Assembly (NCBI RefSeq): GCF_002305875.1
Contig: NZ_CP022098.1
Coordinates: 4,650,001 to 4,714,000 of the forward strand
DNA length: 64,000 nucleotides
Source: Cystobacter fuscus
Lineage (GTDB): Bacteria; Myxococcota; Myxococcia; Myxococcales; Myxococcaceae
Direction of reading: 5' to 3'
Below the pieces are notes generated by a model, which was not told the origin of the DNA, searched no databases, and saw only the letters and a list, made by a program, of their open reading frames with translations. Every line of letters starts with the position of its first letter. Positions within the stretch are counted from its first letter, which is position 1. The position numbers were made by a program, and so were the translations under genes. Positions 22,601 to 43,514 of the stretch are shown piece by piece.

Positions 22601-23173
22601 ATGCTCTCCCTGCTCCTGCTCCTGTCGCTCCACGCCGCGCCCGCCAGCGCCGATGAGGCCCCGCTGCGCCGCGAGGTGGCCCGCGTGGCGATCGCCCAGG
22701 TGCGCCAGATGGACCCCGCGTGGCACCCGGCGCAGCGCGATTGCGCGGGCCTGGTGCGCTTCGTCTTCCGGAGCGCCTACCGGCGCTGGCGCCCCGAGCG
22801 GCTCGCCACGCCCCTGTGGCGCGATGCCCGGGGAGCGCCTGGTGACTTCGCGGACGCCGAGACGCTGCTCGCCCAGAGCTTCACGCCGCTCGGCCGGGAC
22901 GAGGCCACGCGCGAGTCGCTGCGCACCGGGGACGTGGTGGCCTTCCGTCTGGAGCGCGACGCGGGCCCCGTCTTCCACCTGATGCTCGTGGTGCGCCCCG
23001 AGGACAAGGCGCATGCCCCCACGCGCGTCGTCTATCATCCGGGGGAGCCGGGCGCCGCGGTGCGCACCGGCGTCCTCCAGTCGCTCGTCACCGAGGCGCC
23101 CCTGGAGTGGCGTCCGGTATCCCAGAACACCGCCTTTCTCGGCTTCTTCCGCTTCAAGGAGTGGACACGATGA
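22601..23173 (+). CDS. yfaT: YfaT-like DUF1175 protein (NlpC/P60-like fold)
   Basis: The 190-residue product has a signal peptide ending at PASADEA. RDCAGLVRFVFRSAY resembles the catalytic Cys loop of NlpC/P60 peptidases, and GDVVAFRL...VFHLMLVVRP supplies a candidate His. E. coli YfaT is a DUF1175 protein from the alpha-2-macroglobulin locus. A periplasmic cysteine amidase or peptidase is possible but unproven. Its stop overlaps the next start (ATGA). Confidence 0.78.
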   Translation: MLSLLLLLSLHAAPASADEAPLRREVARVAIAQVRQMDPAWHPAQRDCAGLVRFVFRSAYRRWRPERLATPLWRDARGAPGDFADAETLLAQSFTPLGRDEATRESLRTGDVVAFRLERDAGPVFHLMLVVRPEDKAHAPTRVVYHPGEPGAAVRTGVLQSLVTEAPLEWRPVSQNTAFLGFFRFKEWTR

Positions 23174-24786
23174 ACCCTCCCTCATCCCCGCCGGGCGCTC
23201 CGCCGCCCCCCGCGCCTCCGGGCCGCAAGGGACCTCCCCGCGCGCTGCTCGTGGGGGCTGGCGTCGCCGTGCTCGCGGGCGTGTTCGCCGCCGCCTTCTT
23301 CCTCGGTCGGGGCAGTGCCCCCTCCCCGTCGTCCCCCGTCAACCCCGGCGCCCCCCCGTCTTCTGGCGATGCCTCGAGCGGCACGGGCATCCTGCAGGCG
23401 CTGCCGCCCGCGCCCGACAAACCCCGGAAGATGGACGTGCCCTCCGAGGCCGTGCGCCCCGCCTTCTGGGTGGACGTCTACACGCCGGGCGAGGTGCGCG
23501 AGGCGCTCACGGGCAACGCGTGGCTCCAGGAGCAGCTGCGCAAGCCGCTCGGCCAGGGCTTCGTGGGTGGCTGGGCCGCGATGCTCGGCACCCGGAGCGA
23601 GGAGCTCGGTCTGGGCTTCAAGGGCGCCGTGTTCGACCTGCTCGCCGGACAGCTCCTCTCGGCGCCCTTCCGCGTGGTGTGGTTCTCCGGTGACACCCGC
23701 ACCGGCACGCCCGCCATCCTCGTGCCCGAGCCGGGCAACACCGTCATGGCCGCCTTCGATGGGATGGCCGGGGCGGTGCGCCGCGACGTCCTCACGGCCG
23801 ACACGTGTCCGGGAGGGCAGGGCGAGGTGCCCGGCAAGGGCTTCACCCTGACGCGCTGGCTCGTGGCCGAGCAGTCCCTGTGGGCGGCGCGCACGGATGA
23901 CCGGATGGTGTTCGGCCGGACCCCGGCCGTCGTGCTGCAGGGCCTGTGCGAGCCCCACCTGGACCTGGAGCCACCCGAGGAGGTGGACCTGGAGCTGGGC
24001 TTCTCCCCCGAGGCGCTCGGCCGCGAGGCGCAGCTGCTCACGCACGTGATGGGCGTGTCCCAGGGCATCCGCCTCCAGTTCGCCGCCGAGGGCAACCGGC
24101 TGGTGGGCCGGGGCATCGCTGGCCCGGTGGCGGACGATCCCCGGCTGGACAGCGCCCCCCTGTCCGACGAGCTGCTCAAGCTCATCCCCGAGGAGACGCC
24201 CGTGCTGCTCACGCTCCAGCTCAAGCTGCCCGAGCTGCTCGACGCGGCCAGCCTCAAGGCCTTCTGGTCGGGAGGGAGCGCGGACATGGCGGTGCGCACG
24301 CGCCAGGTGGCGCTGGTGTGGACGCCCCGGGGGGATGCGGACCTGCCCAGCGAGGTGGCCCTGCTCTGGGGTCGGCCCGAGGACGCGGTGGCGCTCGACA
24401 CGCTCTTCTCCGGACCCAACCGGATGGAGCGCGAGACGCTGTGCGGCCACCACGTGCTGGCCTCCTCCCCCGCCGTGCTCGAGCGGCTGCGCAAGGCGTG
24501 TGGGGGGGAGGTGCCCAACCTGCTGCACGCGGCTCCCCCGGTGGTGGCGGGGCTGCGCGAGAAGGGCTCGGTGTCCTTCGGCGTGCGCACGGGCTCGTTG
24601 CTCGGCGGGTTGATGGTGGACGGCTACCTGTCGCAGCTGTCCTCCGGTGAAGGCGCGAAGCCGCCCGCGCGCAAGGTGCCCGCGGAGATCGAGGCCGCGC
24701 GCAAGGATCTCGAAACGCTTCCGTACATCGGCCTGCGCGGCACGGTGGATGGCAACCGGCTGGTGCCGGGAGGGTTTGGTTCATGA
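23170..24786 (+). CDS. yfaA: YfaA-like DUF2138 membrane-anchored protein
   Basis: The 538-residue product begins with a Pro-rich cytoplasmic stretch, then one transmembrane helix (about 29-48) and a large periplasmic region. The middle and end (GFVGGWAAMLGTRSEELGL, FSPEALGREAQLLTHVMG, ALVWTPRGDADLP) follow the DUF2138/YfaA pattern. It is joined by ATGA overlaps to the genes for YfaT and the alpha-2-macroglobulin. Probably anchors the complex at the inner membrane (inference). Confidence 0.78.
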   Translation: MNPPSSPPGAPPPPAPPGRKGPPRALLVGAGVAVLAGVFAAAFFLGRGSAPSPSSPVNPGAPPSSGDASSGTGILQALPPAPDKPRKMDVPSEAVRPAFWVDVYTPGEVREALTGNAWLQEQLRKPLGQGFVGGWAAMLGTRSEELGLGFKGAVFDLLAGQLLSAPFRVVWFSGDTRTGTPAILVPEPGNTVMAAFDGMAGAVRRDVLTADTCPGGQGEVPGKGFTLTRWLVAEQSLWAARTDDRMVFGRTPAVVLQGLCEPHLDLEPPEEVDLELGFSPEALGREAQLLTHVMGVSQGIRLQFAAEGNRLVGRGIAGPVADDPRLDSAPLSDELLKLIPEETPVLLTLQLKLPELLDAASLKAFWSGGSADMAVRTRQVALVWTPRGDADLPSEVALLWGRPEDAVALDTLFSGPNRMERETLCGHHVLASSPAVLERLRKACGGEVPNLLHAAPPVVAGLREKGSVSFGVRTGSLLGGLMVDGYLSQLSSGEGAKPPARKVPAEIEAARKDLETLPYIGLRGTVDGNRLVPGGFGS

Positions 24787-27700
24787 AGTCCATCGCTCGC
24801 ATCGCGGCCCTGGCCGCGCTGGTGTCCGCCGGAGTGGCCGCGGCCAAGCCCCTCTACATCACCGTCCCCCGGGCCTACGGCAGCCACGAGCCGGTCGCCG
24901 TGGACGTGGCCTTCGAGAGCAAGGGGCCCGTGGAGCTGCGGGTGCTCAAGCCCGACAACCTCCAGGCCTTCATCCGCGCGCAGGGCGACATCCGCCGCGC
25001 GTACGAGACGCCGCCCACGCTCGCCAATCCGGGCAACGCGCTCAGCCGTGGCCTCAACGCCACGCGCTCTCCGGGCACCTTCCTGCTCAACGCGCTCGGC
25101 ACCGACTTCCGCGAGGCGGTGGCGCCGCGTCTGCCCGCGCGGCCTCCTCCGCCTCCGGGCCAGCCGCTGGCCCGCGTGGCCGAGGGCGCGCGCAAGCTCG
25201 TGGGCGTGCCCGCCGGCTTCACCGCGGTGCGCAGCCAGTGGTTGAACCTGGACCTGGGCGGCACGGATCGCGAGTTCAGCGTGCCGGGCTTCGACACCTC
25301 GTTCTACGACAGCGGCTTCCAGGAGCGCCGCGTGACGCTCGCGCCCCTGCCGACCGGCACCTACCTGCTCCAGCTCGTCCAGGGCCGTGTGGAGGGGCAG
25401 GTGGTGCTCGTCGTCACGGATCTCACCGTGCAGCTCAAGCAGACGGATGGCCAGGTGCTGGTGCGCGTGGCGGGGAGGGATCAGCGGCCCCGCGTGGGCG
25501 CCCAGGTGCAGGTGTACCTGCCCAACGGCAAGGGCCCCACGGGCACCACGGACGCGCAGGGCGAGGTGCGGCTGCCCGTGCAGGAGCCGCGCATCATCGC
25601 CACCGCCACGGCCGACGGGGACACGGCGCTCGTGGACACGGACTTCTATTCGTCGCTCGCGGTGGCGCCCGACGTGTTCATCTACAGCGACCGGCCCATC
25701 TACAAGCCGGGTGACGAGGTGCGCTTCCGCGGGCTCGTGCGCCAGCCGGACAGCTACCTCGCGCGCCTGTTCACGCCCCGCCGCCGCGACGTGGCGGTGA
25801 AGCTCGTGTCGGCCGAGGGCCGCGAGGTGAAGACGCAGGCCCGGGTGGACGAGTTCGGCGCCTTCAACGGCGGCGTGAAGGTGCCCGAGGACCTGGGCAC
25901 CGGCGTGCTGCGCGTCACGGCCGAGCTGGACAGCCAGCCGCACCAGGGCGAGGCGCGCGTGCAGGACTACGTGAAGCCCACCTTCTACCTGGAGCTGCGG
26001 CCGGAGTCGGAGAAGGTGGTGCCGGGCCAGTCCATCAAGGCCACGGTGCAGGCGCGCCGGTACGACGGGGCCGTGCCTCCGCAGACGCGCTACGAGGTGT
26101 TCCTCTACCGCACGCTGCTGGACGCGCCGGCCTGGGTGGATGACGCGGGCATGGGCGGGCAGGGCAGCGCGGTGACGTACGGCAGCGCTTCCACCACGGA
26201 GGGCAGGCTGAGCGTGCCCGAGCGCCTGTACTCCACGGTGGCCCAGCGCGAGGTGGAGGAGGACCCGTGGGCGAGCGCCGCGACGTTCGACGCCGAGGGC
26301 AACGCGGTGATTGAAATCCCCGTGCCCGCCCTCAAGCCGGGCGAGGAGCGCCTGCCCTACCGCTACACCCTCACGGTGCGCGCGCGGGATGACCAGCAGA
26401 CGTTCGCCAACGCGAGCGCCGCCTTCTTCCTGTCCAAGGTGGAGGTGCTGGGAAGCGCGCGCTACTCGGCGGCGGTGGTGAAGAAGGGCGGCGAGGCGGT
26501 GCTGAGCGTGCGCGCCACCACGCTGTCCGGCAAGCCCTACGGCACCACGCCGGGCGAGGTGGAGTTCGTGCTGCGCCGCGCGGATGGCGAGGAGAAGAGC
26601 CTGGGCAAGCGGAGCTTCACCACGGGGCCGGACGGCACGGCACGTGAGAAGGTGCCCACCCCGGACGCGGGCGCGGTGCTGGCGCGCGTCACGGTGAAGG
26701 ACAAGGGCGGCGAGACGTGGACGGGCGAGGAGCAACTGCTCGTCATCGGCGCGGAGAGCGAGCCGGTGGCGCAGGTGCCCACGCTGACCCTGGCGGCGCT
26801 CGCGAGCACGCTGTCGCCGGGCGACACGGCGCAGCTCGTGGGCCTGTTGCCCCAGGGCTGGGGCCCCAACGGCACGGATGGCGGCCCGGTGTGGGTGACG
26901 CTCACGGGCGCGGGGGTGTACGGCACGAAGCTCGTCGAGCTGAAGGGCCGCACGCTCGTGTACGAATTCGAGGTGGAGAAGCGCTTTGGCAGCGCGGTGT
27001 ACGCGTCGGTGGCGTACCCCACGGCGGCGGGCGGCTGGGAGGAGCGCACGGTGGGCTTCCGCATCGTCCCCGCCGAGCGCACGCTGCGCGTGTCGTTGCA
27101 GCCCCGGCGCGCCGAGGCCACGCCCCTCACCGAGCAGATCATCGACCTCCGGGTGACGAACCACGAGGGCGAGGGCGTGGTGTCGCAGGTGTCCGTGGGC
27201 GTGGTGGACAAGGCTGTCTACGCCATCCAGAGCGAGTTCCGTCCCCAGGTGCTCGACTTCTTCTACCCGCCGGGCCGCGACAACGTGGCCACCTTCGTGT
27301 CGGCCGAGTTCCAGGGCTACGGCTACGGCGAGGCCATCGCCCGCAAGCTCTCGGGGCTGCCGGACCATGCCTTCGCTTCCATCAAGCCGCCCACGCGACA
27401 GGCCAAGGACCTGGAGCGCGACACGGCCTTCTGGAGCCCCTCGGTCGTCACGGACCGGGACGGGCGGGCCACGGTACGCTTCAAGCTGCCCTCCAACCAG
27501 ACGCTCTGGGTGGTGACGGGCGTGGCGGCGGACACCTCGGGCCGCTTCGGCGAGGGCACGGCGGAGTTCGCCACGCGCGGCGGGCTCGCCCTGTACGCGG
27601 CGCTGCCCCAGTTCCTCCGCCAGGGAGACGAGGCGCGCGCGTCGGTGCGCCTGTCGGCGGGGGAGAAGTCCCCGGACAGCCAGCAGTTGAACGTGCGGCT

Positions 27701-29492
27701 CGTGGCCTCGGGCGTGCTCGATGCCGCCGAGGACCAGCGCAAGGTGCAGCTCGCCAAGGGGGGCGAGCAGGTGCTGCCCCTCCAGCTCAAGACGAAGGGC
27801 GCGGGCCTGGCGCAGCTCGCGGTGGAGGTGACGGGGGGCAAGGAGCCGCTGAGGGACAAGCACGTGCTGGACGTGCGCCCGGCGGTGTTCGAGGAGCCGG
27901 TGAAGGTGTCGAAGTGGGGCGGCGGCGAGCTGTCCCTGCCCGCGGCGCCGAGCGCGAAGGTGGAGGGCGTGGAGCTGGTGTTGCAGCCCTCGCTCGTGGA
28001 CGCGGCGCTCGCCAACGTGCGCGAGCTGCTCACCTACCCGTATGGGTGCCTGGAGCAGCTCGTGTCCACCACGGTGCCCAACGTGGCGCTGTACCAGACG
28101 CTCAAGAAGGCGGGCGCGCTGGAGTCGCTCGACACGGACAGCCAGGGGCTGCTCGCCGAGGCGCGCAGCCGCGCGGTGCAGGGCACGGCGCGCATCCTGG
28201 ACATGGGCGTCAAGGGCGGCGGCTTCACCTGGTTCAGCGGCTACAACCAGGCGGACCTGCCCATGACGCTCATCGCGCTGGACGGGCTCGCGTACGCGGT
28301 GGACGCGGGGCTCGTGGATCGCAACGAGCCGCGCATCACCGAGAGCCTGCGCTGGCTGGAGGCGCAGGAGGGGCTGCCCTTCGAGTGGGACGCCACGCGG
28401 GCGTGGGTGCTGGCGCGCATGGACGGCGAGCGGCAGGCGGCCCGGGTGCGCGCGCTGGTGGAGGCCGCGCCGCCGGGAGACCTCTATCCGCTGGCGCTGG
28501 CGGTGCTGGCGGCGGAGAAGGCGGGAGTGATGAAGGAGCCCGCGCTCAAGGGCCGCATCGACGCGCTGGTGGCCCAGAGCAACGAGGGCTTCGTCACGCT
28601 GGCGAAGCTGCCCGCGCCGAGCGAGGCCATGTGGCGCTATCCGCTGCGCCGGGTGGGCCTCACGGCGATCCTCGCCCACGCGGCGTCCTTCGGGAACCTG
28701 GACGTGGCCAAGGCGCGCCGGCGGCTGCTGGAGGCGCTGTCGGAGCCGGGGCTGTCCACCTTCGATAGAAGCACGGCGCTGCTGCACTCGCTGTGGCTCG
28801 TCGAGCGGGACGCGAAGGAGTTCCGCAAGCTGCCGCCGCCCGAGGTGAAGGGGACGAAGAGCCCGGTGAGCTTCAGCCCGCGGGGCATGGGGCTGGTGGC
28901 GGTGCTGGAGCCGGGCACGCGCGGCGTGCAGGTGGCGGACTTCCAGGGCGTGGCGAGCCTGCGGGGCACGGCGGCCACGCCGCTCACGGACGTGAAGCCC
29001 ATGGCCGAGGGCATGAGCCTCACGCGCGCCTATTACGTCCTGCGCGAGAGCGGCAAGGTGCGGCTCGAGCCGGGGGCCTCGCTCAACCAGGGCGAGGTGG
29101 TGTACGTGGAGCTGACGCTGGACGCGCGTGGGGACAACCGCAACCGCTCGGCGTACTACGTGGTGGAGGACGCGGTGCCGGCGGGCTTCGTGCCGCTCGT
29201 CGAGGACAAGGAGTACCGGGCGGCTCCGCACGAGCTGCCCCTGGCCCCCGAGGCGCTCAAGCGCCGCTCGCTCAGCCCCCAGCGCGCCACGTTCTTCTTC
29301 GAGGAGCCGGCGTGGTGGAGCGACAGTCCGCGCACGGTGGGCTACGTGATGCGGGCGCAGTTCGTGGGCTCCTTCTCCGCGCCGCCCGCCGTCATCGAGG
29401 ACATGTACGTCACGAGCATCCGCGGCCGCACGGGCACGGACGTGCTGAAGGTGGCGGCCTCGCAGACGGACGTGGGGCCGGGCGGAGGGTGA
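24783..29492 (+). CDS. yfaS: Bacterial alpha-2-macroglobulin, YfaS type
   Basis: The 1569-residue product has a Sec signal peptide without lipobox, so it is soluble in the periplasm rather than lipid-anchored like YfhM/A2M type 1. Macroglobulin-like domains fill residues 25-900 (YSDRPIYKPGDEVRFRGLVR marks the MG2 domain; VTDRDGRATVRFKLP and TLWVVTG precede the thioester domain). YGCLEQ holds the thioester Cys1089-Gln1092, followed by the alpha/alpha-barrel thioester domain (about 1080-1390). A protease cleaving the bait region would activate the thioester and be covalently trapped. It is ATGA-linked to yfaA and followed five bp later by yfaQ. Confidence 0.95.
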   Translation: MKSIARIAALAALVSAGVAAAKPLYITVPRAYGSHEPVAVDVAFESKGPVELRVLKPDNLQAFIRAQGDIRRAYETPPTLANPGNALSRGLNATRSPGTFLLNALGTDFREAVAPRLPARPPPPPGQPLARVAEGARKLVGVPAGFTAVRSQWLNLDLGGTDREFSVPGFDTSFYDSGFQERRVTLAPLPTGTYLLQLVQGRVEGQVVLVVTDLTVQLKQTDGQVLVRVAGRDQRPRVGAQVQVYLPNGKGPTGTTDAQGEVRLPVQEPRIIATATADGDTALVDTDFYSSLAVAPDVFIYSDRPIYKPGDEVRFRGLVRQPDSYLARLFTPRRRDVAVKLVSAEGREVKTQARVDEFGAFNGGVKVPEDLGTGVLRVTAELDSQPHQGEARVQDYVKPTFYLELRPESEKVVPGQSIKATVQARRYDGAVPPQTRYEVFLYRTLLDAPAWVDDAGMGGQGSAVTYGSASTTEGRLSVPERLYSTVAQREVEEDPWASAATFDAEGNAVIEIPVPALKPGEERLPYRYTLTVRARDDQQTFANASAAFFLSKVEVLGSARYSAAVVKKGGEAVLSVRATTLSGKPYGTTPGEVEFVLRRADGEEKSLGKRSFTTGPDGTAREKVPTPDAGAVLARVTVKDKGGETWTGEEQLLVIGAESEPVAQVPTLTLAALASTLSPGDTAQLVGLLPQGWGPNGTDGGPVWVTLTGAGVYGTKLVELKGRTLVYEFEVEKRFGSAVYASVAYPTAAGGWEERTVGFRIVPAERTLRVSLQPRRAEATPLTEQIIDLRVTNHEGEGVVSQVSVGVVDKAVYAIQSEFRPQVLDFFYPPGRDNVATFVSAEFQGYGYGEAIARKLSGLPDHAFASIKPPTRQAKDLERDTAFWSPSVVTDRDGRATVRFKLPSNQTLWVVTGVAADTSGRFGEGTAEFATRGGLALYAALPQFLRQGDEARASVRLSAGEKSPDSQQLNVRLVASGVLDAAEDQRKVQLAKGGEQVLPLQLKTKGAGLAQLAVEVTGGKEPLRDKHVLDVRPAVFEEPVKVSKWGGGELSLPAAPSAKVEGVELVLQPSLVDAALANVRELLTYPYGCLEQLVSTTVPNVALYQTLKKAGALESLDTDSQGLLAEARSRAVQGTARILDMGVKGGGFTWFSGYNQADLPMTLIALDGLAYAVDAGLVDRNEPRITESLRWLEAQEGLPFEWDATRAWVLARMDGERQAARVRALVEAAPPGDLYPLALAVLAAEKAGVMKEPALKGRIDALVAQSNEGFVTLAKLPAPSEAMWRYPLRRVGLTAILAHAASFGNLDVAKARRRLLEALSEPGLSTFDRSTALLHSLWLVERDAKEFRKLPPPEVKGTKSPVSFSPRGMGLVAVLEPGTRGVQVADFQGVASLRGTAATPLTDVKPMAEGMSLTRAYYVLRESGKVRLEPGASLNQGEVVYVELTLDARGDNRNRSAYYVVEDAVPAGFVPLVEDKEYRAAPHELPLAPEALKRRSLSPQRATFFFEEPAWWSDSPRTVGYVMRAQFVGSFSAPPAVIEDMYVTSIRGRTGTDVLKVAASQTDVGPGGG

Positions 29493-29496: not shown

Positions 29497-31716
29497 GTGA
29501 TGGGGTGGGCCGCGGTCACGGCCGTCGTGCTGGCGGCCACCCCCGTCTTCGTCACCCGCGGAGACGTGACTCCCGAGGCGGCGCTGCGCACCGAGGCGGA
29601 GGCCACCTGGCGGGCGCTGGAGGCGCGCTACGTGGCCGAGGCGGGAGGCGCACCCGCCCGGGCACCGGCCACCGTGCTGCTCAAGCGCGGGGAGACGCTG
29701 TTACCCTCGCGCAACGGGCAGGGCCGGCCGGGGGTGGTGGAGCTGCGGCAGGACAGCGCCGGGGTGCTGGACGTGCGGCTGCGCGTGGCGCTCCGGCACG
29801 AGCTGGCGCACCAGCTCCTCTGGTGGGCCTGTCCGGCGTCGGCGGAGGATCGGCTGTTCCACGAGGCCTTCGCGCTGGCGGTGAGCGGCGAGCTGGCCGA
29901 GTGGCGCGAGGCACCCTACCAGTCGCTGGCGAGCGCCTCGGTGGAGCTGGCGCGGAGCCCGGACGTGGACACGCCGCGGGCGCGCCGGGCGCTGGCGCGC
30001 GTGCTGAACGAGGACGCGGGCTTTCCGAGGGCGCTGACGCGGAGGCTGCGGCGGTGCCAGGAGGGGACGCGCTGGACGGTGCCGTTGTCGGTGGGAGAGC
30101 TGGCCGGACACGCGGAGCGGAGCGTCGCCCAGGCCACGGTGGTGCTCAGCCGGCACTCGGGCGAGGTGCTCTTCTCCGAGGGGGCGTTCCGCACGGCCAT
30201 GCCCTATGGCTCGACGCTCAAGCCCTTCGTGGTGGCGGGGAGCACGGCGGCGCCTCCGGTGCTCGCGCCCCGGGCGGAGGTGGCGGAGTGGATGTGCGGC
30301 GAGCGGATGCCGGAGCGGATGGACGTGAGGACGGCGCTGTTGCGCTCGTGCAACGGCTACTTCCTGGACTGGGAGGGGAAGGGGAGCGCGCCGAGGGCCT
30401 TCGGGGCCTGGGGGGCGGTGCTGTCGGCGGTGGGCCTGTCGAGCGAGCCGCTGGACATGGCGGACGCCATCGGCTTGCGCGCGACGCTGAGCCTGTCTCC
30501 GTGGGGGCTGGCGCAGGCGTACCGGTTGCTGGCGGAGGCGCGGCCGGACGTGCTGACGTGGCTCGCGGACAACGCGGCGCGAGGGACGCTGTCGGAGCTG
30601 CCCGCGTCGAGGGACTACGCGGGCGTGGCGACGAAGACGGGGACGGTGCGGGACGAGGAGAGCCGGCCGGTGCTCGGGTGGATTGTCGCGGTGGACGCGG
30701 ACCTGGTGGCGGTGGTGGCGAGGCCGGGGAAGATGCCGCGGGCCTTCGCGGACGAGGTGCCCCGACTGCTGGCGCGGGTGAGGAGCCAGCACGCGGGGCT
30801 GGAGGCGGCGCGGGTGCAGGTGCTGGGGCTGGTGTCCCCGGACTCTGTCGAGGCGCGGTGCCTGGGGGCGGGCTTCGTGCTGGAGGACGGCACGCCGCGG
30901 GCGGTGTCGGGAGACTTCACGAAGCTGGAGCCGTGGGTGAAGAAGGGCGGAGCGGTGTGCCTGGGCAGCCCCTGGCGGGTGCGCTTTCCCGAGCTGCCCG
31001 CGGGCCGTGATTACGCGGGGGTGCTCACCTGGTCGCCGCCGCCGCCCTACGCGCCTCCGGCGGGAGTGCCCACGAGCCCCACGGCGCTCAAGGCGAGGAA
31101 GGGCTCGGCGTATGTCTTCCGCACCACGCGGCTGCAATACACGGCCGGAGTGGTGACGGCGGAGGACGCGGCGTTGAAGGGGGAGGCGAGGGTGGCGCTG
31201 GCGCGGGTGGTGGCGCACAACGAGCGGCACGCGGACGAGCGCCATCCGGGCCGGCCCCTCTGCGATACGACGCATTGCCAGTCCTTCCAGGGCACCGTGC
31301 GCATCGCGCCCGAGGACGCGCGGGCCCTGCGGTTGCCGGCGCTGCGCTGGCGCGAGTGGCTGACCTTCTCCAAGGGAGGACAGGAGCCCTGGACGCAGAC
31401 GCGTCCGCGCGCGCAGGTGGAGTCGCTGTTGGGCCGGGGCGTGACGGCGGTGCGCTTCGCCGAGGGGCGCGTGCACTACCTGCGCACGAGGAACGAGGGC
31501 GGAGCGGTGTTCGACGCGCCCGAATCCCTGCCCTGTGAGGTGCTGCGCTCCACGCTGAAATTGCCCGCGTGCCCCCGGAGCGCCGCCTTCGAGGACGCGC
31601 GCGTCACCTTCCAGGGACAGGGCCAGGGACATGGCGAGGGGCTCGACGTCGAGGCCGCGAAGGCGAGCGGGGCCCCACAGGAACAACTCCTGGAGGCCGC
31701 GTACGGCGCCCGGTGA
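29497..31716 (+). CDS. yfaQ: YfaQ-like DUF2300 protein with PBP motifs and SpoIID-like tail
   Basis: The 739-residue product starts at GTG 29497 or ATG 29500. An N-terminal region has HELAH (101-105) with FHEAFA 17 residues later, a gluzincin-like pair. It then shows a complete penicillin-binding set: STLK (239-242) in PYGSTLKPF, SCN (284-286) and KTGT (380-383). The last 300 residues (DUF2300) end in GQGHGEGLDVEAA, resembling the SpoIID glycan-cleaving family. A periplasmic peptidoglycan role is inferred. The last gene of the yfa set; the T6SS cassette begins 24 bp after its stop on the other strand. Confidence 0.85.
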   Translation: MMGWAAVTAVVLAATPVFVTRGDVTPEAALRTEAEATWRALEARYVAEAGGAPARAPATVLLKRGETLLPSRNGQGRPGVVELRQDSAGVLDVRLRVALRHELAHQLLWWACPASAEDRLFHEAFALAVSGELAEWREAPYQSLASASVELARSPDVDTPRARRALARVLNEDAGFPRALTRRLRRCQEGTRWTVPLSVGELAGHAERSVAQATVVLSRHSGEVLFSEGAFRTAMPYGSTLKPFVVAGSTAAPPVLAPRAEVAEWMCGERMPERMDVRTALLRSCNGYFLDWEGKGSAPRAFGAWGAVLSAVGLSSEPLDMADAIGLRATLSLSPWGLAQAYRLLAEARPDVLTWLADNAARGTLSELPASRDYAGVATKTGTVRDEESRPVLGWIVAVDADLVAVVARPGKMPRAFADEVPRLLARVRSQHAGLEAARVQVLGLVSPDSVEARCLGAGFVLEDGTPRAVSGDFTKLEPWVKKGGAVCLGSPWRVRFPELPAGRDYAGVLTWSPPPPYAPPAGVPTSPTALKARKGSAYVFRTTRLQYTAGVVTAEDAALKGEARVALARVVAHNERHADERHPGRPLCDTTHCQSFQGTVRIAPEDARALRLPALRWREWLTFSKGGQEPWTQTRPRAQVESLLGRGVTAVRFAEGRVHYLRTRNEGGAVFDAPESLPCEVLRSTLKLPACPRSAAFEDARVTFQGQGQGHGEGLDVEAAKASGAPQEQLLEAAYGAR

Positions 31717-31740
31717 GGGGATGGCCGCCACCATCTGCCC

Positions 31741-33006
31741 CTATTCAAACATTTTCTGCCAATGGTTCAGAGCCTGCTGCTGGCGGAGCACTGGCCAATC
31801 GGGCTCGAAGTCAATGGATTGGCGAGTGTGCAAGGCGAGTTCTCTGGCTGCGCGCGTGCGTACTCTCAGCGGGCTGAGGGGCTCCTTGAGTTCGGCAAGA
31901 CAGGCGACCACACTAAACGGCTGGCCCCGGCGCCAGCGAGGCGCTTGGCCGAAGCGTGCACGATTATCCTCCCACCAACGCCGCCAGGCTTTGGGCTCGG
32001 TGACAGGAGTCTCCACCCATGTTGAGCGGTTCTCGCCCTCATCGAGTTCTCTGTGCAGGTGTAGCTGGTGCGGCAAGCGCGCCCCTGTCATGAGGCTCAA
32101 GGCTTCATCTGCCGCTAGACGTGTTTTCGTCTCCGCTGCCTCCAACTGCTCAAGCAGCATGGGTACAGTGGCTGGGACGCCGAGTACGCCCATTGCATGG
32201 AGGGCTGAGATGGCGAGGCCGGGATTCACGACACAACGTTGAATCCGCGCCACATCGCACTCATCCCCCGCGAGTGCTAGTAGATGAAGTAGAGCGGGGG
32301 GCGGGTTGTCGGCGACACAAAGGCGACGCACCTGCTGTAGTGCGTCCGAGGAGCCCATGAGAAGGGCAGCAGGCAACAAATCTACCGCCTCGCCAGGGGG
32401 CACCCTGCGTGACTGGGTCTCAATGGTTTTCAATGCATGCTGGTAGCGTAATCGCGCCAGCGCGAGTGCGGTGGCGGAGCGTACGACAGGTTGAGGATCC
32501 TCCAGTAAGGGCAACAGGCACTCTGCTTCTCCTTCGCGTCTCCAACCCAGCCAGTGGGCGGCGGAGGCGCGTACCTGCGAACGGGACGAACTCAGTAGGC
32601 GACAGAGGCCGGGCGCGACTTCAGTGTGGGAAACCAGGGCCAGGGCTTCAAACCAAGCAGGGAGTAGCTCCTCGGGAGCCTTGTCCATGGCTTGAAAGAC
32701 CTCGTCCATGTCTTCAGTTCCGTGCAGGGTCAAGGTATAGGCGGAGGCGCGTACTCGGTTCGCATCATCCTCGGTAAGTAGCGCTCGCGTCTGAGCCAGC
32801 CCCGTTTTGCTGGCGGCATGCAGGGCTTCGGCATGAGCCAGAGCACGTGCTTCCAATTGTCCTAAACGAGACCAGGGCACCTCCGGGTCGTGCAGGTAGC
32901 GGAGCCGCTGCGCCAGCAGGAACTCCAGTTCTGAGAGATGGTTCTCTCCCAAGCCGCGCTGAAATGCTTCGGCTTCTGGGTGGTCAAGCAGAGAGTGCGA
33001 GCGCAT
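31741..33006 (-). CDS. TIGR02270-type HEAT-repeat protein
   Basis: The 421-residue product is built of helical HEAT repeats between about residues 70 and 330 (RASAAHWLGWRREGEAECLL; VVRSATALALARLRYQHAL). The C-terminal segment WWEDNRARFGQAPRWRRGQPF and ARELAL match TIGR02270, a family found in type VI secretion effector loci. It is the last gene of the five-gene cassette, 24 bp after the SUKH gene. It may be a scaffold or accessory loading factor; its biochemical role is not known. GC is visibly lower than in yfaQ next door. Confidence 0.8.
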   Translation of the reverse strand: MRSHSLLDHPEAEAFQRGLGENHLSELEFLLAQRLRYLHDPEVPWSRLGQLEARALAHAEALHAASKTGLAQTRALLTEDDANRVRASAYTLTLHGTEDMDEVFQAMDKAPEELLPAWFEALALVSHTEVAPGLCRLLSSSRSQVRASAAHWLGWRREGEAECLLPLLEDPQPVVRSATALALARLRYQHALKTIETQSRRVPPGEAVDLLPAALLMGSSDALQQVRRLCVADNPPPALLHLLALAGDECDVARIQRCVVNPGLAISALHAMGVLGVPATVPMLLEQLEAAETKTRLAADEALSLMTGARLPHQLHLHRELDEGENRSTWVETPVTEPKAWRRWWEDNRARFGQAPRWRRGQPFSVVACLAELKEPLSPLRVRTRAARELALHTRQSIDFEPDWPVLRQQQALNHWQKMFE

Positions 33007-33030
33007 TGGATAGCTCCTTTGAATGTCCGA

Positions 33031-33771
33031 TCAAATCAATACAACAGGTAGGCGACTGCGTAGTTCCTTGCCCACTTTCGATATCCACTCTTCGTGGTCC
33101 GAGGCGGCAATGAGCTGAAGCCCTTCTCCCTTGAGCCATCGTACTTCGATGACCCCTTCATCGGATTCATAGCCCTGGACCCAGGGCCCAGAGAGGGGAT
33201 GTCGTATCAGACCTAGTTCTGTCAGTACTTGCTCGGCACGTTCCTTGGGCGGATTCTCCCCTCTTACATCAGAGTGCAGAGACATATGTTGCATGGGCTC
33301 CACTCGCAGATCATGGTAGGCCTCACGAAAAAGCATTTCCGCCAAGCTTGTTGCGTCTGGATGTATTCTCTCGCTCTCTGGTTCTAGTTTGTCCTCGAGG
33401 TTGATGACAGGCACGCGGACGGCTGGAGGCCCATTGCCGGAATCCACGCCCAGGTCGAGAAAATATTCTAGCTCCGACTCAGTCAAATCTCTCCCAACAA
33501 GAATGTACCTCCGGGGCACTAAGCTCAAACGCCGGGAGCGTGTCACGAATCGTTCGATTGCACTTGGTCTGAAGTCGATGTGCTCCCAGGCCAGGCCGTC
33601 ACTCCCGTGGCCAACATGCGTCAGGAAAGTCTTGTAGGCCTCTGGCAGTGTGCGTCCTTGAACCTCTTCCAATCGATGGATTTCATCCTTTGATGCCCCG
33701 CGCAGCGGTGTTCGAGAGGCGGGCCATCGCTCAAGAATGAACTGCACAACTCCCTGGATTCCGCTGGTCAT
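33031..33771 (-). CDS. SMI1/KNR4 (SUKH) family immunity protein
   Basis: The 246-residue product carries the SUKH opening, with EIHRLEEVQGRTLPEAYKTFL and a following G-containing strand, at about residues 27-60. It is cytoplasmic. Its start overlaps the stop of the PAAR-effector gene (ATGA), the normal arrangement for a toxin and its antidote. It is predicted to neutralise that effector. The C-terminal 90 residues (from about 155) lie outside the core domain. Confidence 0.85.
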   Translation of the reverse strand: MTSGIQGVVQFILERWPASRTPLRGASKDEIHRLEEVQGRTLPEAYKTFLTHVGHGSDGLAWEHIDFRPSAIERFVTRSRRLSLVPRRYILVGRDLTESELEYFLDLGVDSGNGPPAVRVPVINLEDKLEPESERIHPDATSLAEMLFREAYHDLRVEPMQHMSLHSDVRGENPPKERAEQVLTELGLIRHPLSGPWVQGYESDEGVIEVRWLKGEGLQLIAASDHEEWISKVGKELRSRLPVVLI

Positions 33772-34814
33772 GATGGCTCCATCTCATTGGCTGGCCACGT
33801 TCTCGGTTCAATCGGCTCGCTCTTCGCTCTCTGTCTGGCCTCGCACAAGAGCACGGGCAGTAAGTTTCGGCAGGTCTGACATGGTTCGTAATTCTGGCCA
33901 TGCTCTTTGTCGCCCTTGGGCGGTCCAAACCACTGCTCGACCATTTCGAGAGGTTCCCATCCCTGCTCCATGGCGTAAAGCAATAGCTTGGGAGCGGCAC
34001 AGCCACCTGGTTCGTTGGAGCTGGAGTCTTTGCCTTTTAGTCGATCCATTCGGATTGGGTTGTTTCTTTTGTTGGCGAGACGATCAGCCTGCTTCTTCAG
34101 TATTTGATTCAGCTTGGCTCCATCCATTCCGTTTCCCACGGGGAAGTTCCTGGGCACGGAGTTAATTGCGCCCGACATGGAGTTGATGGTTATCGTTTTC
34201 CCGTTTTTGGTCCTGCATTTCAGTACCCCCAGCATAAAGCCGTACCCCTCCCTCTCCTCGACCTCTTGTTTGAACTCTCCATGATGTCTTCTGACAAGGA
34301 GCCTCATTTCTTTCTGAACATCCTCTGTTGCAGGGAGCCCTGGCTCATGCTGTGAGAATGGCTGGCCACATGCTTGGCATATCAGTTCTTCGGCTTTGCC
34401 CTCCACGCGCTGAGGATCCCCATACACAGTTCCCACCGTGTTTGGGGTGTTGGCATTCGCTAAAAATGTATCCAGGAAGCGTACAACCCCCTGTCCTTCC
34501 ACCAACACGTCCAGGCTCGCTGTGAGGAAGATGATTTTCCCCTGTGTTTTCGATGAAATCAGCCCTCCGCCTGCCGTCCCAGCCTCGTCTCCAGAACTGG
34601 TGCTTAAGTATGAGCCCTTGAGTGCTACCGGGTACCCATTTACCTCTACACTCGTGCTTCCCTCAGCCAAATCACTGTCCTTGGCAATATTCGGGTAAGG
34701 CACTGGCACTGGCCCACCAGGCGAGGGGGTTTTACACACATCCGGTGCCGCCGCCGTCTGCTGATTACCATCGCCCTGATGCAGCACCGAACGTCCGTTC
34801 ACATACGTCTTCAT
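33768..34814 (-). CDS. PAAR-like (DUF4150) type VI effector with deaminase-like C-terminus
   Basis: The 348-residue product starts at 34814 by ATGA overlap with the upstream gene. Residues 1-125 are a DUF4150 PAAR-like tip domain (MKTYVNGRSVLHQGDGNQQT, PVPVPYPNIA). CQAC (146-149) with a nearby His may bind zinc. The C-terminal 150 residues contain CAAPK (272-276) and PCQTC (311-315), the spacing of YwqJ-like and related nucleic-acid deaminases. Those normally read C/H-A-E, but here the catalytic Glu position is Ala. The toxin could be inactive, use another acid, or belong to a related metal-binding fold. Loaded by DUF2169 and antagonised by SUKH (inference). Confidence 0.8.
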   Translation of the reverse strand: MKTYVNGRSVLHQGDGNQQTAAAPDVCKTPSPGGPVPVPYPNIAKDSDLAEGSTSVEVNGYPVALKGSYLSTSSGDEAGTAGGGLISSKTQGKIIFLTASLDVLVEGQGVVRFLDTFLANANTPNTVGTVYGDPQRVEGKAEELICQACGQPFSQHEPGLPATEDVQKEMRLLVRRHHGEFKQEVEEREGYGFMLGVLKCRTKNGKTITINSMSGAINSVPRNFPVGNGMDGAKLNQILKKQADRLANKRNNPIRMDRLKGKDSSSNEPGGCAAPKLLLYAMEQGWEPLEMVEQWFGPPKGDKEHGQNYEPCQTCRNLLPVLLCEARQRAKSEPIEPRTWPANEMEPS

Positions 34815-35851
34815 GGCTGCACCGCCAGCACGCATGCCCCCACGCATCCTCCATCTGAGCTGCCGTACACCAGTGCCCTCCGGCCACCCAGTTTTCTCAG
34901 CACATACAACCCATATCCCACCTGGAGCGCCCCAGCTGCCGCCCCCACTTCACCCAGCCCCTGGGCCACATCCTCAATCATCAATGGTTCGGGGAATAGC
35001 TCGGCATTGCGCAAGTACGCCAGTGCGAACTCTTTTGCCCAGTAACTTTCCCCTGTTTGGCATGAAAGCACACGATCTACCCGTTGGCCTCTTACCAGTG
35101 GATGATACCTCAGCTGATGAAAAACTGCTGTCAACCCGTCTGACTGGTTGGGTTCTCCCTGCCGGAAGTGCCGCTCTTCTCGCGCACTGGACTCCGCTAC
35201 GATCCAGCCCTTTACTACGAGCCGTTGTTGCCTGACCGTCTCCGCGTTCGCCAGCAGTACAAAACCAGCCCCCTCGCCTGGCAGCACTCCTGCGCGCCGC
35301 TCCTCCGTCAAACATCGCCCCGACTCCACCAACCGCCGCAGCGATGCCCGATCACTGAGGCAGTCAACTCCTCCCACCAGCACCCAGGGCGATCGCTGTC
35401 GTCTCAGAAGTTCTCTTGCTCGCGCCAACGCTGGGAAGAGGCCCGCTCGGCCCTCTCGCCACTCTCCGGGCTCCCACTCCAACCGCACCGCCGCCATTTG
35501 CTGCTCCAGCGCCTCCTTCAATTCCTCTTGCTCCCAGGGGGCCCCATGCATTTGCTCCGGCAGCCCGAGTATGAGTGGCAACCGTTGCACACCCCATTGT
35601 TTTACCTCGGCCAAGCACTCCTCAAGCGCCGTTACCCCCAATGCCACCATGCGTTGCGTGCGTGTCCTGTCTTCCTTGAGCAGAGGCAAGCGGCTCGCTC
35701 GTATTCGCCCACGTCTGTCATCCCTCACCTCCGTACAAACGAAGCCCGTTGTGCCCGCGGCCCGCTCCGCATGGGTCACCTGTGCTGTCAGCCCTATTGG
35801 CGTGCATGCCCCGAGTGCGACTACGGCCACTGCATCCCGGTAGTCCCTCAC
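34811..35851 (-). CDS. Thiolase-fold (ketosynthase-like) protein without catalytic Cys
   Basis: The 346-residue product starts at GTG 35851 (GTGA overlap with the DUF2169 stop; AGGAA upstream). VAVVALGACTPIGLTAQ matches the ketosynthase opening and VLVGGVDCLSDRASL plus VLPGEGAGFVLL match the region after the active site. The expected catalytic stretch (ACASS-type) reads GRAGLFPAL, so the Cys is missing, and the two usual His motifs are not seen. Such proteins occur beside DUF2169 and DUF4150 genes in type VI effector loci, where a structural or chaperone function is more likely than condensation chemistry. Confidence 0.78.
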   Translation of the reverse strand: MRDYRDAVAVVALGACTPIGLTAQVTHAERAAGTTGFVCTEVRDDRRGRIRASRLPLLKEDRTRTQRMVALGVTALEECLAEVKQWGVQRLPLILGLPEQMHGAPWEQEELKEALEQQMAAVRLEWEPGEWREGRAGLFPALARARELLRRQRSPWVLVGGVDCLSDRASLRRLVESGRCLTEERRAGVLPGEGAGFVLLANAETVRQQRLVVKGWIVAESSAREERHFRQGEPNQSDGLTAVFHQLRYHPLVRGQRVDRVLSCQTGESYWAKEFALAYLRNAELFPEPLMIEDVAQGLGEVGAAAGALQVGYGLYVLRKLGGRRALVYGSSDGGCVGACVLAVQP

Positions 35852-36861
35852 TGCAATTCCTTTCTCGGAAATGCCTCTTGAATGACGCTCTCGCTGTACG
35901 CCGCTAGTTCCCCATGCAAGAGAATCGTTGCTCGCCACAGCAGCGTCACCGCCGCCTCGTCCGGCTCTAGATGCACGCCATCCAGTACGAACTCTCGCCG
36001 TACGATCCGTCTCCCCAATCGGTTCTCCAGCGCCAACTGCGAGTATGGCAGCAAAAATTCCAGTCGCCCGTCCGGGGAGAATCCCTCCAGTACCACCTCC
36101 TCGCCCCCCTTCAGCCCACTCGCCACATTCAATCCCGGAGCAGCCGCCTGGAAGAACCGCTCGTCGAAGTCCTTGGGCCACAACGGTGCGCGCCGCTCCA
36201 CCCATTGTACGTCATACGTGCCTGCATACCCGCGCCGTGGCTCCCAGTGCCGGGCCACCGGGCCGAAGCCCACTGGCGCCAACTTTTGCGTGGGGCTTTC
36301 TAGCAATCGCTCCACGTCCTCCACGTTGGGCAGTGGCCTATCCACGGCTTCCTTCGCCGATGCATACAAGCCACACCCCACAGGGTTGCGCGGCTCACTT
36401 GCTCCTCCCACGCTCCTCTCCCAGCGCAAGGGCATTCGCTCATAGGCTTGCGGCGCGGAGGGCTTCACCCCCAGAAGCCCCTGCTGCCACACCCGCGGGC
36501 CGAACACACGGGCCACTTTGCGACAGGATCCCACTCTCAATCCAACCACGCCCTCCTTTGTTGGCTTCCCCTGTGGAGCCCAGGCGTGCCCAGTGACGTA
36601 CATGTCCGTTCCTGGTCGCGCGTATACCAATTGCCCCTCTTGGCGCAGACTTGATAGATGAGGCTCACCCCAGTACTCATCCACTTGAGGTGGCGGGTAC
36701 TGATCCTCGCTCAGTCTCAGTGGCTCGATGGTTGGGTGTCCCGGAGGTGGCAAGACGAATCGCCCCGCCACACACACTACCAGCAACTCGCGTCCTTCCT
36801 TGTCCAATAGCAGTGCGTCGGTTGCGGCAAATCGACTTTGGTTCCGTAGATGCTGAGTCAT
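35848..36861 (-). CDS. DUF2169 type VI effector adaptor/chaperone
   Basis: From ATG 36861 (GGGGGG six bases upstream) the product has 337 residues; a TTG at 36900 would add 13. The DUF2169 pattern is clear: LRNQSRFAATDALLLDKEGRE at the start, VCVAGRFVLPPPG, DMYVTGHAWAP and the closing FVLDGVHLEPDEAAVTLLWR. In other bacteria DUF2169 proteins bind PAAR-like effectors and mount them on VgrG. First gene of the cassette. No tss or vgrG genes are in the window, so the secretion machine must be elsewhere. Confidence 0.85.
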   Translation of the reverse strand: MTQHLRNQSRFAATDALLLDKEGRELLVVCVAGRFVLPPPGHPTIEPLRLSEDQYPPPQVDEYWGEPHLSSLRQEGQLVYARPGTDMYVTGHAWAPQGKPTKEGVVGLRVGSCRKVARVFGPRVWQQGLLGVKPSAPQAYERMPLRWERSVGGASEPRNPVGCGLYASAKEAVDRPLPNVEDVERLLESPTQKLAPVGFGPVARHWEPRRGYAGTYDVQWVERRAPLWPKDFDERFFQAAAPGLNVASGLKGGEEVVLEGFSPDGRLEFLLPYSQLALENRLGRRIVRREFVLDGVHLEPDEAAVTLLWRATILLHGELAAYSESVIQEAFPRKELQ

Positions 36862-36935
36862 CAATCGCCCCCCATATGGATGCACCGAGACCACATTCAA
36901 GGCTCGTTTCTACATCAAAACAGGGACCTGGGCGA

Positions 36936-37683
36936 CTCGTGCAACGGCTACTTCCTGGACTGGGAGGGGAAGGCTGGGGCTGGTGTCCCCGGACTCTGTC
37001 GAGGCGCGGTGTCCGGGGGCGGGCTTCGTGCTGGAGGACGGCACGCCGCGGGCGGTGTCGGGAGACTTCACGAAGCTGGAGCCGTGGGTGAAGAAGGGCG
37101 GAGCGGTGTGCCTGGGCAGCCCCTGGCGGGTGCGCTTTCCCGAGCTGCCCGCGGGCCGTGATTACGCGGGGGTGCTCACCTGGTCGCCGCCGCCGCCCTA
37201 CGCGCCTCCGGCGGGAGTGCCCACGAGCCCCACGGCGCTCAAGGCGAGGAAGGGCTCGGCGTATGTCTTCCGCACCACGCGGTTGCAATACACGGCCGGG
37301 GTGGTGACGGCGGAGGACGCGGCGTTGAAGGGGGAGGCGAGGGTGGCGCTGGCGCGGGTGGTGGCGCACAACGAGCGGCGCGCCCACGCGCGCAGGTGGA
37401 GTCGCTGTTGGGCCGGGGCGTGACGGCGGTGCGCTTCGCCGAGGGACGCGTGCACTACCTGCGCACGAGGAGCGAGGGGGGAGCGGTGTTCGACGCGCCC
37501 GGGTCCCTGCCCTGCGAGGTATTGCGCTCCACGCTGAAGTTGCCCGCGTGTCCCCGGAGCGCTGCCTTCGAGGACGCGCGCGTCACCTTCCAGGGACATG
37601 GCGAGGGGCTCGACGTCGAGGCCGCGAAGGCGAGCGGGGCCCCCCAGGAACAACTCCTGGAGGCCGCCTACGGCGCCCGGTGA
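36936..37683 (+). pseudogene. Decayed second copy of the yfaQ 3' half
   Basis: The segment repeats yfaQ almost base for base. Positions from 36936 match 30345-30382, then jump to 30822-31228, then to about 31408-31716, ending at the same stop. Two internal deletions of about 440 and 180 bp and a 12-bp loss (GQGQGQGHGEG becomes GHGEG-type) separate it from the source, and the deletions shift the frame. It keeps the SCN motif but not STLK or KTGT, so it cannot make a functional product. It lies on the far side of the T6SS cassette from intact yfaQ. Confidence 0.92.
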
Positions 37684-37717
37684 GCGGGAGAGCGCACCGG
37701 GCCTTCTTCCCAGGACA

Positions 37718-38320
37718 TCACCTTCCCGCCGGTTCACCCCGTGCGTTCGGGCCCCGTGGCCACCAGAGGGCACCCAGCCTCACCGCGAGCGCGTCGAACG
37801 GCTCCGCGAAAACGTCCTGGTCGCCCGTGTGACGGGCGATGAGCCGCCAGCCCCGAGCCCGTCGACGGTGGATCTCCAGGGTCCGGGTGGGCGGATCCAC
37901 CAGCCAGACATGTCCCACGCCCTCGCGGTGATAGAGCGGAAGCTTGCGCTCCCGGTCAGTGCTCACCGACGCGGGGGAGAGGATCTCGCAGATCCAGTCC
38001 GGAGCGACCGTGGCGAAGGGCGCGTCCTTGAAAGAGGGAACTGGCACCCGCTCGCGGCGCCACCCGGCAAGATCCGGGACGAGGACGTTTCCGCCCAGGT
38101 GAAGCTCCGGCTCGTAGAGGAGCCACCAGCCGCCACGCGTCTCGGGCTGTCCCAGATCGAAGGCCATGCCCAACAGGGCACTGAGCGCCAGGCCCACTCG
38201 CGCGTGGGGCAGGGCGGGCCTCGGTGAGGCCACCAGCTCGTCCTCCAGGATTTCCCCCACCCATCCGACCGGCAGCGCCTCGATGTCCTCATAGGTCGCC
38301 GCGCGCCTGCTCTTCTTCAT
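37718..38320 (-). CDS. Uma2-family (DUF820) endonuclease-like protein
   Basis: The 200-residue product has the Uma2 layout: VPDLAGWR (Asp83), APDWICEILSPAS (Asp108, Glu112), then DRERKLPLYHREGVGHVWLVDP, the PD-(D/E)xK-type core. These proteins are abundant in cyanobacteria and myxobacteria and have no settled function. There is no signal peptide. A 10-bp hairpin and the ~84-bp repeat lie upstream of its start. Confidence 0.9.
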   Translation of the reverse strand: MKKSRRAATYEDIEALPVGWVGEILEDELVASPRPALPHARVGLALSALLGMAFDLGQPETRGGWWLLYEPELHLGGNVLVPDLAGWRRERVPVPSFKDAPFATVAPDWICEILSPASVSTDRERKLPLYHREGVGHVWLVDPPTRTLEIHRRRARGWRLIARHTGDQDVFAEPFDALAVRLGALWWPRGPNARGEPAGR

Positions 38321-38337
38321 GTCCGACCCCCGCTCCT

Positions 38338-38371
38338 GGTGAGCCCGTGGCTTGCCCGAAGCGGGCTCACC
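38338..38371. repeat. 10-bp inverted repeat in the Uma2 leader
   Basis: GGTGAGCCCG (38338-38347) and CGGGCTCACC (38362-38371) form a perfect 10-bp stem with a 14-base loop, 18 bases upstream of the Uma2 start. It could be a leader structure or an operator. Confidence 0.5.
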
Positions 38372-38373
38372 AT

Positions 38374-38458
38374 GTGACTTCTCCCATTCTACGCCGGGGT
38401 CTGACTTCTAAAGGAGGGGAACGCCGTCACGGCGTGCCCCATCGGACAGGTGTGCCCC
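38374..38458 (-). repeat. ~84-bp repeated element, copy 1 (upstream of Uma2 gene)
   Basis: It matches 43226-43308 in the same orientation over its full length with scattered changes. On the minus strand it reads CACCTGTCC, then a hairpin with GGGG/CCCC outer and ACGCCG/CGGCGT inner arms, then CCCGGCGTAGAATGGGA. TAGAAT is five of six bases of a sigma-70 -10 box. It lies between the last Cys-peptide gene and the Uma2 gene. Confidence 0.7.
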
Positions 38459-38514
38459 ACGCCGAGCTTCCGCATGGGCCGGTACGTCAGCAAATGCGGA
38501 CGAACGGGGCATGG

Positions 38515-38769
38515 TCAGCAAGTGCGATTGCAGCTCTGCTCGCAAATGTTGCGCTGCAAATGGCATGTGGTGAGCTTCACCATGTCGGAGCCGGCGCTGT
38601 TGAAGCACCCCTGGAACTGCGGGTTGCAGTACGAGCAACAGCCAATCTGCTGGGCCGGTGTGGCCGGTGTGCCCGTGCTCTGCGCCGCGGCTTCATGCGC
38701 GGGGAAGGCCACGGCGCCCAGCGCGCCCAGGGCAAGTCCGAAAAACCCCATCTTCAATGTCTTCATCAT
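38515..38769 (-). CDS. Secreted Cys-patterned peptide, paralogue 1
   Basis: The 84-residue product has the shared signal peptide MMKTLKMGFFGLALGA, with cleavage expected after the AAAQ region. The mature peptide carries eight cysteines spaced CC-x2-C-x6-C-x13-C-x6-C-x3-C-x3-C. The start is the first of two ATG codons at 38769, after GGAAT. It is the promoter-distal member of four tandem genes. No known family; a disulfide-stabilised secreted peptide is expected. Confidence 0.82.
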   Translation of the reverse strand: MMKTLKMGFFGLALGALGAVAFPAHEAAAQSTGTPATPAQQIGCCSYCNPQFQGCFNSAGSDMVKLTTCHLQRNICEQSCNRTC

Positions 38770-38812
38770 GGTCCAATTCCTTGTCGAGGTGTGGGGATGT
38801 CCAGACGGGGAC

Positions 38813-39043: not shown

Positions 39044-39147
39044 GACTCATCTCCTTGTTGATTTCTTGGGACAGTGGATCCTGTCCGCGAAGACAAACAT
39101 TGGTGTGAGGTCCGCTTACCTGCCTCTGCCTCTGACTGCGACGCGCG

Positions 39148-39387: not shown

Positions 39388-39455
39388 GTTGAATCTCCTG
39401 GGAAGCGATTCTCTTCAGGTCTTGCTGAATGGTTTGCCTGGAGCCGGGAACGCGA

Positions 39456-43500: not shown

Positions 43501-43514
43501 GCTGGAATTCAGCC

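Follow-up and report, generated by a model that had tools for sequence, protein, structure and literature searches.

What kind of protein accompanies an alpha-2-macroglobulin (A2M) when its gene directly follows the A2M gene in the myxobacterium Cystobacter fuscus? In order to answer this question, we analyzed a 64,000-nucleotide window of the genome (contig NZ_CP022098.1, positions 4,650,001 to 4,714,000), in which a fusion gene at 29497 to 31716 encodes 739 amino acids with a metallopeptidase-like, a penicillin-binding protein (PBP)-like, and a SpoIID-like module. The fusion gene with its modules and motifs and the four other genes of its row lie on the forward strand, and coordinates are those of the window unless a locus is named. 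We read the product as a predicted three-module peptidoglycan enzyme, probably exported, that would cut and re-link damaged wall beside the A2M; this reading is held with about equal measures of belief and doubt.

The search for close relatives returned 24 loci, all from myxobacteria. Alignment A1 joins the window protein with 21 of them; two loci that run off their contigs (L013, L017) and a frame-broken one (L023) were left out, and two cut ones (L020, L021) were retained. The open reading frame (ORF) in the window is intact, from GTG 29497 to a stop codon at 31714 to 31716. The next codon, ATG 29500, appears to be the likelier start (738 amino acids), because 19 of the 21 A1 relatives begin there with ATG; the preceding GTG is present in L001 and L002 only. 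Residue numbers count from GTG 29497, and the ATG start would move all of them by one. On this numbering, the metallopeptidase-like module occupies residues ~20 to 196, the PBP-type module 211 to 435, and the SpoIID-like module 438 to 739, and a hydrophobic N terminus, read by eye, suggests that the protein is probably exported.

A profile search matched 85 of 195 Myxococcota genomes, 75 of them across essentially the whole profile; the remaining 10 matches were split, partial, restricted to the SpoIID half, or plain SpoIID. The wider alignment A2 contains 15 proteins, namely, the window protein, 4 of the 21 A1 relatives, and 10 of the 20 loci taken from the profile search. Left out were L068 (without the SpoIID part), L069 (starting inside the gene, without the SpoIID core), L070 and L071 (SpoIID part only), L073 (a fragment), L075 (plain SpoIID), L074 and L076 (SpoIID genes of the PBP1C rows described below), L077 (a doubtful match), and L078 (broken). 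The 14 relatives in A2 share 42 to 79% identity with the window protein, and H101, E102, H105, E123, S239, K242, S284, N286, K380, G382, T383, E556, H583, C589, H593, and C594 are identical in all 15 members. A phmmer search of the PDB with the single window protein found no match, and an NCBIfam scan gave none above the cut-off.

The PBP-type SxxK domain (residues 211 to 435; 30127 to 30801) was recovered by VIA-align and Foldseek. Its SxxK, SxN, and K[TS]G motifs follow one another in the expected order in 15/15 members: STLK (239 to 242; 30211 to 30222), with S and K invariant, aligns with GSAIK of PBP2; SCN (284 to 286; 30346 to 30354) is found throughout A2; and KTGT (380 to 383; 30634 to 30645) keeps K, G, and T everywhere, with T381 replaced by S in one member. 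VIA-align superimposed 210 residues of the module on Neisseria gonorrhoeae PBP2 (6xqv) with a Z of 14.1 and a root mean square deviation of 3.6; PBP3 and OXA enzymes were tied with PBP2, with OXA-57 at Z 13.8. The top Foldseek match was a class D beta-lactamase (E value 3.9e-6), and PBPs were also matched. In the full-length AlphaFold2 model, the predicted local distance difference test score (pLDDT) is ~70 to 80 across much of the module and lower in loops. When the module profile was searched against the PDB, the four best matches were PBP2 structures (E 0.04), and the fifth was a beta-lactamase (E 0.13); in the PBP2 alignment SxxK falls on SxxK, and the only segment that pairs KTG with KTG scores about zero by itself. 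The Pfam Transpeptidase family (PF00905) is matched by 5 of the 15 members (best E 0.002). The initial annotation had expected Ser239, Lys242, Ser284, and Lys380 to cluster in the structure; the predicted end-to-end match to the PBP fold, with SxxK aligned to that of PBP2, does not contradict this. The predicted fold and the motifs are those of penicillin-recognizing enzymes, and the domain may act as a transpeptidase, a carboxypeptidase, or a beta-lactamase.

The best evidence for the SpoIID-like domain (residues 438 to 739; 30808 to 31713) is a putative active site that the initial annotation had missed. E556 (31162 to 31164) aligns with the catalytic E101 of Clostridioides difficile SpoIID, and H583, C589, H593, and C594 (31243 to 31278) align with its zinc ligands H134, C140, H145, and C146; the roles of this Glu and of the zinc ligands in the C. 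difficile protein have been tested (PMC6221140). The correspondence runs residue by residue, except that the window protein is one residue shorter between the Cys and the His-Cys pair; moreover, the module is fused to two further domains, and its gene context is not one of sporulation. The GHGEG stretch (711 to 715; 31627 to 31641) corresponds to the GHGxG motif of SpoIID, which is present in all 14 A2 rows that reach the site. Searched against the PDB at E values up to 10, profile A8 gave four matches, the best three being SpoIID structures (7.6e-4, 9.5e-4, and 0.022), and all matches below 0.1 were SpoIID structures. Pfam SpoIID (PF08486) is matched by 13 of the 15 members (best E 0.0024). 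Among 150 candidates scored, of 190 in the window's own genome, the profile recovered the gene itself, its broken copy (see below), and, as the sole further match, the SpoIID-family gene of the genome. At two loci (L070, 7296 to 8783; L071, 7836 to 8873), the SpoIID half occurs without the other two modules but with its active-site residues present, and thus it can exist as an independent module; the stretches examined around these loci contained no A2M of this kind.

HELAH (101 to 105; 29797 to 29811) likely, though not provably, lies in a third, gluzincin-like domain (residues 20 to 196; 29554 to 30084) rather than in the PBP or SpoIID part, as judged from AlphaFold2 and VIA-align. Residues H101, E102, and H105 of this zinc-ligand motif are invariant, and so is H122-E123 (29860 to 29865), which holds a candidate third zinc ligand. 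Folded alone, residues 20 to 196 gave a best model with a pLDDT of 71.9 and a predicted template modeling score of 0.75 (the other four models reached a pLDDT of 42 to 65), in which HELAH is contained within one helix and the conserved HE within the following one. All 50 VIA-align matches listed for this model were metallopeptidases (best Z 7.6), which we take to be of the M1, M4, M9, and M61 types. Foldseek performed poorly (best E 0.21). Across the 15 members, Pfam listed 13 families at E values up to 10, seven of them metallopeptidase families; the best were BSP (0.0018) and SprT-like (0.0029), each in 2 of the 15. The N-terminal profile gave two weak matches in its own genome (E 0.08 and 0.17; 150 of 351 candidates scored), which were taken as chance.

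The fusion gene closes a row of five genes whose ends touch or overlap. The row begins with a DUF2135 protein, the YfaP counterpart (21662 to 22585; Pfam DUF2135, 9e-7), and a DUF1175 protein, the YfaT counterpart (22601 to 23173; Pfam DUF1175, 1.4e-27; NLPC_P60 at 0.033, below cut-off). In the position of YfaA/MagB lies a protein (23170 to 24786; ORF listed from 23107) that, by eye, has a single transmembrane segment; this one hydrophobic N-terminal segment and a size similar to that of YfaA are its recognizable features; Pfam gave no match, and profile comparison with E. coli YfaA (DUF2138) yielded nothing significant. It is followed by the A2M (24783 to 29492), in which Pfam bMG10, MG2, A2M, A2M_BRD, and TED are all above cut-off and which carries the thioester motif YGCLEQ. 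All five genes occur in this order at 29 of 44 loci scanned. Seven further contigs cover part of the row and show that part (L010, L013, L020, L023, L060, L068, and L078), the contig of L069 begins inside the fusion gene, and the remaining seven loci (L070, L071, and L073 to L077), which lack the row, represent genes for SpoIID alone, a fragment, or matches that are doubtful. CxEQ is present in the A2M at 34 of 38 loci scanned; at L068 to L071 the site is not covered or there is no A2M. A stand-alone GT51 transglycosylase gene (20243 to 21154) lies just upstream; it was rejected as a member of the row, since two of the 16 upstream stretches contain it and both of these belong to the window's own genus.

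These neighbors recall the yfa genes of E. coli and the mag operon (MagA to MagF) of Pseudomonas aeruginosa. In the E. coli row (yfaA, yfaT, yfaS, yfaQ, yfaP), which differs in order from the myxobacterial one, yfaQ likewise follows the A2M gene and is accompanied by DUF1175 and DUF2135 genes, and YfaQ is described as bipartite, with an N-terminal transpeptidase-like and a C-terminal SpoIID-like part (PMC12282094, mSystems 2025), the same succession as in the window protein. In the mag operon, magE comes right after the A2M gene magD, and small partner proteins act together with the A2M; MagD, however, is without CXEQ, which the myxobacterial A2M has (PMC5764988). YfaQ of E. coli and a plasmid-borne Citrobacter sequence were compared with each module by hhalign. 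The PBP module gave an E value of 1.2e-5 in one comparison (probability 81), with a score reached by 0 of 1,000 shuffles; the SpoIID module matched weakly (E 0.02; 27 of 1,000 shuffles), and for the HExxH part no relationship was measurable (E 0.1; 247 of 1,000 shuffles). At the SxN and KTG places, both YfaQ proteins read SCG and (by eye) KTW, whereas the window protein is complete. The HExxH of E. coli YfaQ (HEYLH) lies near the C terminus, that of the window protein near the N terminus. A circular permutation is not claimed: on full-length E. coli YfaQ, the N-terminal profile has its best local match elsewhere than at the C terminus, which scores no better than shuffles. The designation "YfaQ homologue" in the initial annotation is thus borne out by where the gene lies and by its PBP module, but not by Pfam DUF2300 (PF10062), for which the window protein and all 195 Myxococcota genomes were negative (E. 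coli was positive among 14 controls). Among plasmids, YfaQ relatives were found in six E. coli records and one from Citrobacter, and no relative of the window protein was found; viral contigs gave no match for YfaQ or profile A2. We read the fusion gene as the myxobacterial positional counterpart of YfaQ/MagE, the A2M partner in rows of the yfa/mag type.

In a second arrangement, a PBP and a SpoIID are encoded by separate genes beside an A2M. Weak extra profile matches in genomes G034 and G047 (family f3) turned out to be SpoIID genes that follow an A2M and a PBP1C gene. When one such SpoIID was searched against the 195 genomes, 21 of the 22 best-scoring loci had PBP1C immediately before the SpoIID gene, the remaining one being truncated where its contig ends, whereas none of the following eight had it; a single genus contributes 13 of the 22. 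Among nine loci examined (L074, L076, and L126 to L132; L133, a stretch of a mag-type locus, stands outside this count), seven have A2M, PBP1C, and SpoIID as neighbors (L074, L076, L126, L127, L129, L130, and L132), and the thioester motif is present in all seven A2Ms; L128 has PBP1C and SpoIID with no A2M detected, and L131 is cut. This arrangement resembles the known PBP1C-A2M (pbpC-yfhM) pair, a transpeptidase module beside a thioester A2M, to which a SpoIID gene is added in the Myxococcota loci examined. It differs from the fusion in that PBP1C has a GT51 domain, the genes are three instead of one, and the A2M has diverged (27 to 30% identity, in pieces). Thus, a PBP-type domain and SpoIID recur beside two A2M lineages, fused in one case and encoded separately in the other, a statement that we found in none of the open-access papers searched.

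In the favored reading of a three-module wall enzyme, the SpoIID domain would cut peptide-stripped glycan where the wall is damaged, the SxxK domain would act on D-Ala-D-Ala stems by re-linking or trimming them, and the metallopeptidase-like domain may process a partner protein or clear protein debris; the A2M would meanwhile trap intruding proteases, so that the row as a whole may form a unit of envelope damage repair and defense. We infer wall repair beside A2M because deletion of yfaQ in E. coli makes cells consistently wider and the gene correlates with peptidoglycan and envelope genes (PMC12282094), because magD guards P. aeruginosa against certain peptidoglycan-targeting effectors of the type VI secretion system (T6SS) (PMC12663445), and because a joint defense-and-repair role of A2M and PBP1c has been hypothesized in print (PMC5764988).

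A number of results weigh against this reading. The full-length AlphaFold2 model is weak (mean pLDDT 50.9, with 22 similar sequences as input), too much so for any part but the PBP-type module to be interpreted. The window protein has no match to Pfam Transpeptidase, and for Pfam SpoIID it scores 14.2 against a 23-bit cut-off. Searched against its own genome at E values up to 10, the PBP-type module profile found only itself and the broken copy; since no ordinary PBP was among the matches and the best PDB match stands at 0.04, the module is far in sequence from ordinary PBPs. For the N-terminal module, the gluzincin Z values stay below 8, a range where chance arrangements occur, six of the 13 Pfam families listed are not metallopeptidases, and the profile obtained nothing but chance matches in the PDB. 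On its own, C. difficile SpoIID shows no activity unless an amidase has acted first (PMC6221140), and a Pfam scan of the five-gene row detected no amidase. With SCG and KTW in E. coli and Citrobacter YfaQ, not every relative has retained catalysis; moreover, P. aeruginosa MagE is considered a cytoplasmic protein without stable attachment to the Mag complex (PMC5764988).

How far do other explanations account for the same data? Short motifs are common, and a G+C-rich ORF could contain them by chance. This is practically negligible here, being refuted by the fold match, the profile matches, and the 15/15 invariance; as the initial annotation had listed them, the ORF and its HELAH, STLK, SCN, KTGT, and GHGEG motifs are all confirmed, the conservation extends down to 42% identity, and fold and profile searches recovered three separate regions. 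A module that senses penicillin or resembles class D beta-lactamases, and so would bind or hydrolyze beta-lactams instead of acting as a D,D-peptidase, would agree with the Foldseek top match, with the tie between OXA-57 and the PBPs, and with the shortness of the PBP-type domain. The class D beta-lactamase signature is SxV, however, and all 15 proteins have SxN; relatives match Pfam Transpeptidase, and in the profile search the beta-lactamase came fifth, behind PBP2. We regard such a module as decidedly improbable, and give similarly little credence to a catalytically dead binding scaffold, which the E. coli version, with the SCG and KTW that it shares with Citrobacter YfaQ, may partly be: in A2, all three modules keep their active-site residues unchanged even where overall identity falls to 42%.

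The main rival is that the protein serves A2M maturation, with the HExxH domain cutting or activating the neighboring A2M, while its two other domains, PBP-like and SpoIID-like, would chiefly keep the protein attached to peptidoglycan. Deletion of magE strongly affects the amount of MagD and leaves MagD in higher-mass, apparently unprocessed forms, for which the authors suggested a role of MagE in signal-peptide processing or as a chaperone (PMC5764988), and the invariance of HExxH and E123 would suit such a function. The catalytic residues of the PBP-type and SpoIID-like domains are equally invariant, though, and the same paper places MagE in the cytoplasm. The annotation of E. coli MG1655 lists yfaS as a pseudogene, and the strains with the yfaQ deletion phenotype reportedly derive from K-12. 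A partner devoted to its A2M fits poorly with this, as yfaQ deletion nonetheless alters cell width (PMC12282094). We therefore consider maturation unlikely, though it deserves more weight than the beta-lactamase or scaffold alternatives. A bolder extension of the three-module wall enzyme is somewhat more doubtful than maturation: the exported protein would be a complete excise-and-repair unit whose own metallopeptidase clips the A2M, or is released by it, thereby coupling trapping to repair, and the two known bacterial A2M systems, of the mag/yfa and PBP1C types, would be one design of A2M, D,D-transpeptidase, and SpoIID, realized as a fusion in the former and by separate genes in the latter.

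The DNA behind the gene includes a broken, partial copy of it at 36936 to 37687, extended by a profile match to ~36829. Its three pieces of 38, 421, and 321 bp are 100, 98, and 91% identical to 30345 to 30382, 30822 to 31242, and 31400 to 31720, respectively. Between gene and copy (31741 to 36900) lies T6SS-like cargo consisting of a HEAT protein, a SUKH-like protein (just below cut-off), a Tox-PAAR-like protein, a ketoacyl-synthase-like protein (below cut-off), and a DUF2169 protein. At locus L002, from Archangium lansinium, the sequence that follows the gene corresponds to the window from 50497 onward; thus, ~18.8 kb (~31741 to 50497), with the cargo and the broken copy inside it, was not found at that position. 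In the genome of L073, part of the 3' end of the gene is present a second time at another place, in degenerate form (L073, 5007 to 5412; ~69% DNA identity over 270 bp).

As the initial annotation had proposed, a PBP-type and a SpoIID-like domain are joined in a single protein, whose gene comes immediately after that of an A2M; its statement that it knew of no such combination having been described does not stand, since the two-module YfaQ, transpeptidase-like and SpoIID-like, is already known from PMC12282094. In the open-access papers searched, we did not find the metallopeptidase-like module, the complete active sites, a mag-type row whose A2M carries the thioester motif, or the separate A2M-PBP1C-SpoIID rows of other myxobacteria. 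The mag-type operon has been called quite distinct from the PBP1c type (PMC5764988), and the molecular mechanism by which magD protects against wall-targeting T6SS effectors is said to remain to be elucidated (PMC12663445). With a PBP-type and a SpoIID-like domain in one protein of the mag-type row, and SpoIID in the PBP1C row as well, one wall-repair logic shared by the two types of row is suggested; and because the active-site residues are complete where E. coli YfaQ differs, the residues named here make a role in wall repair testable.

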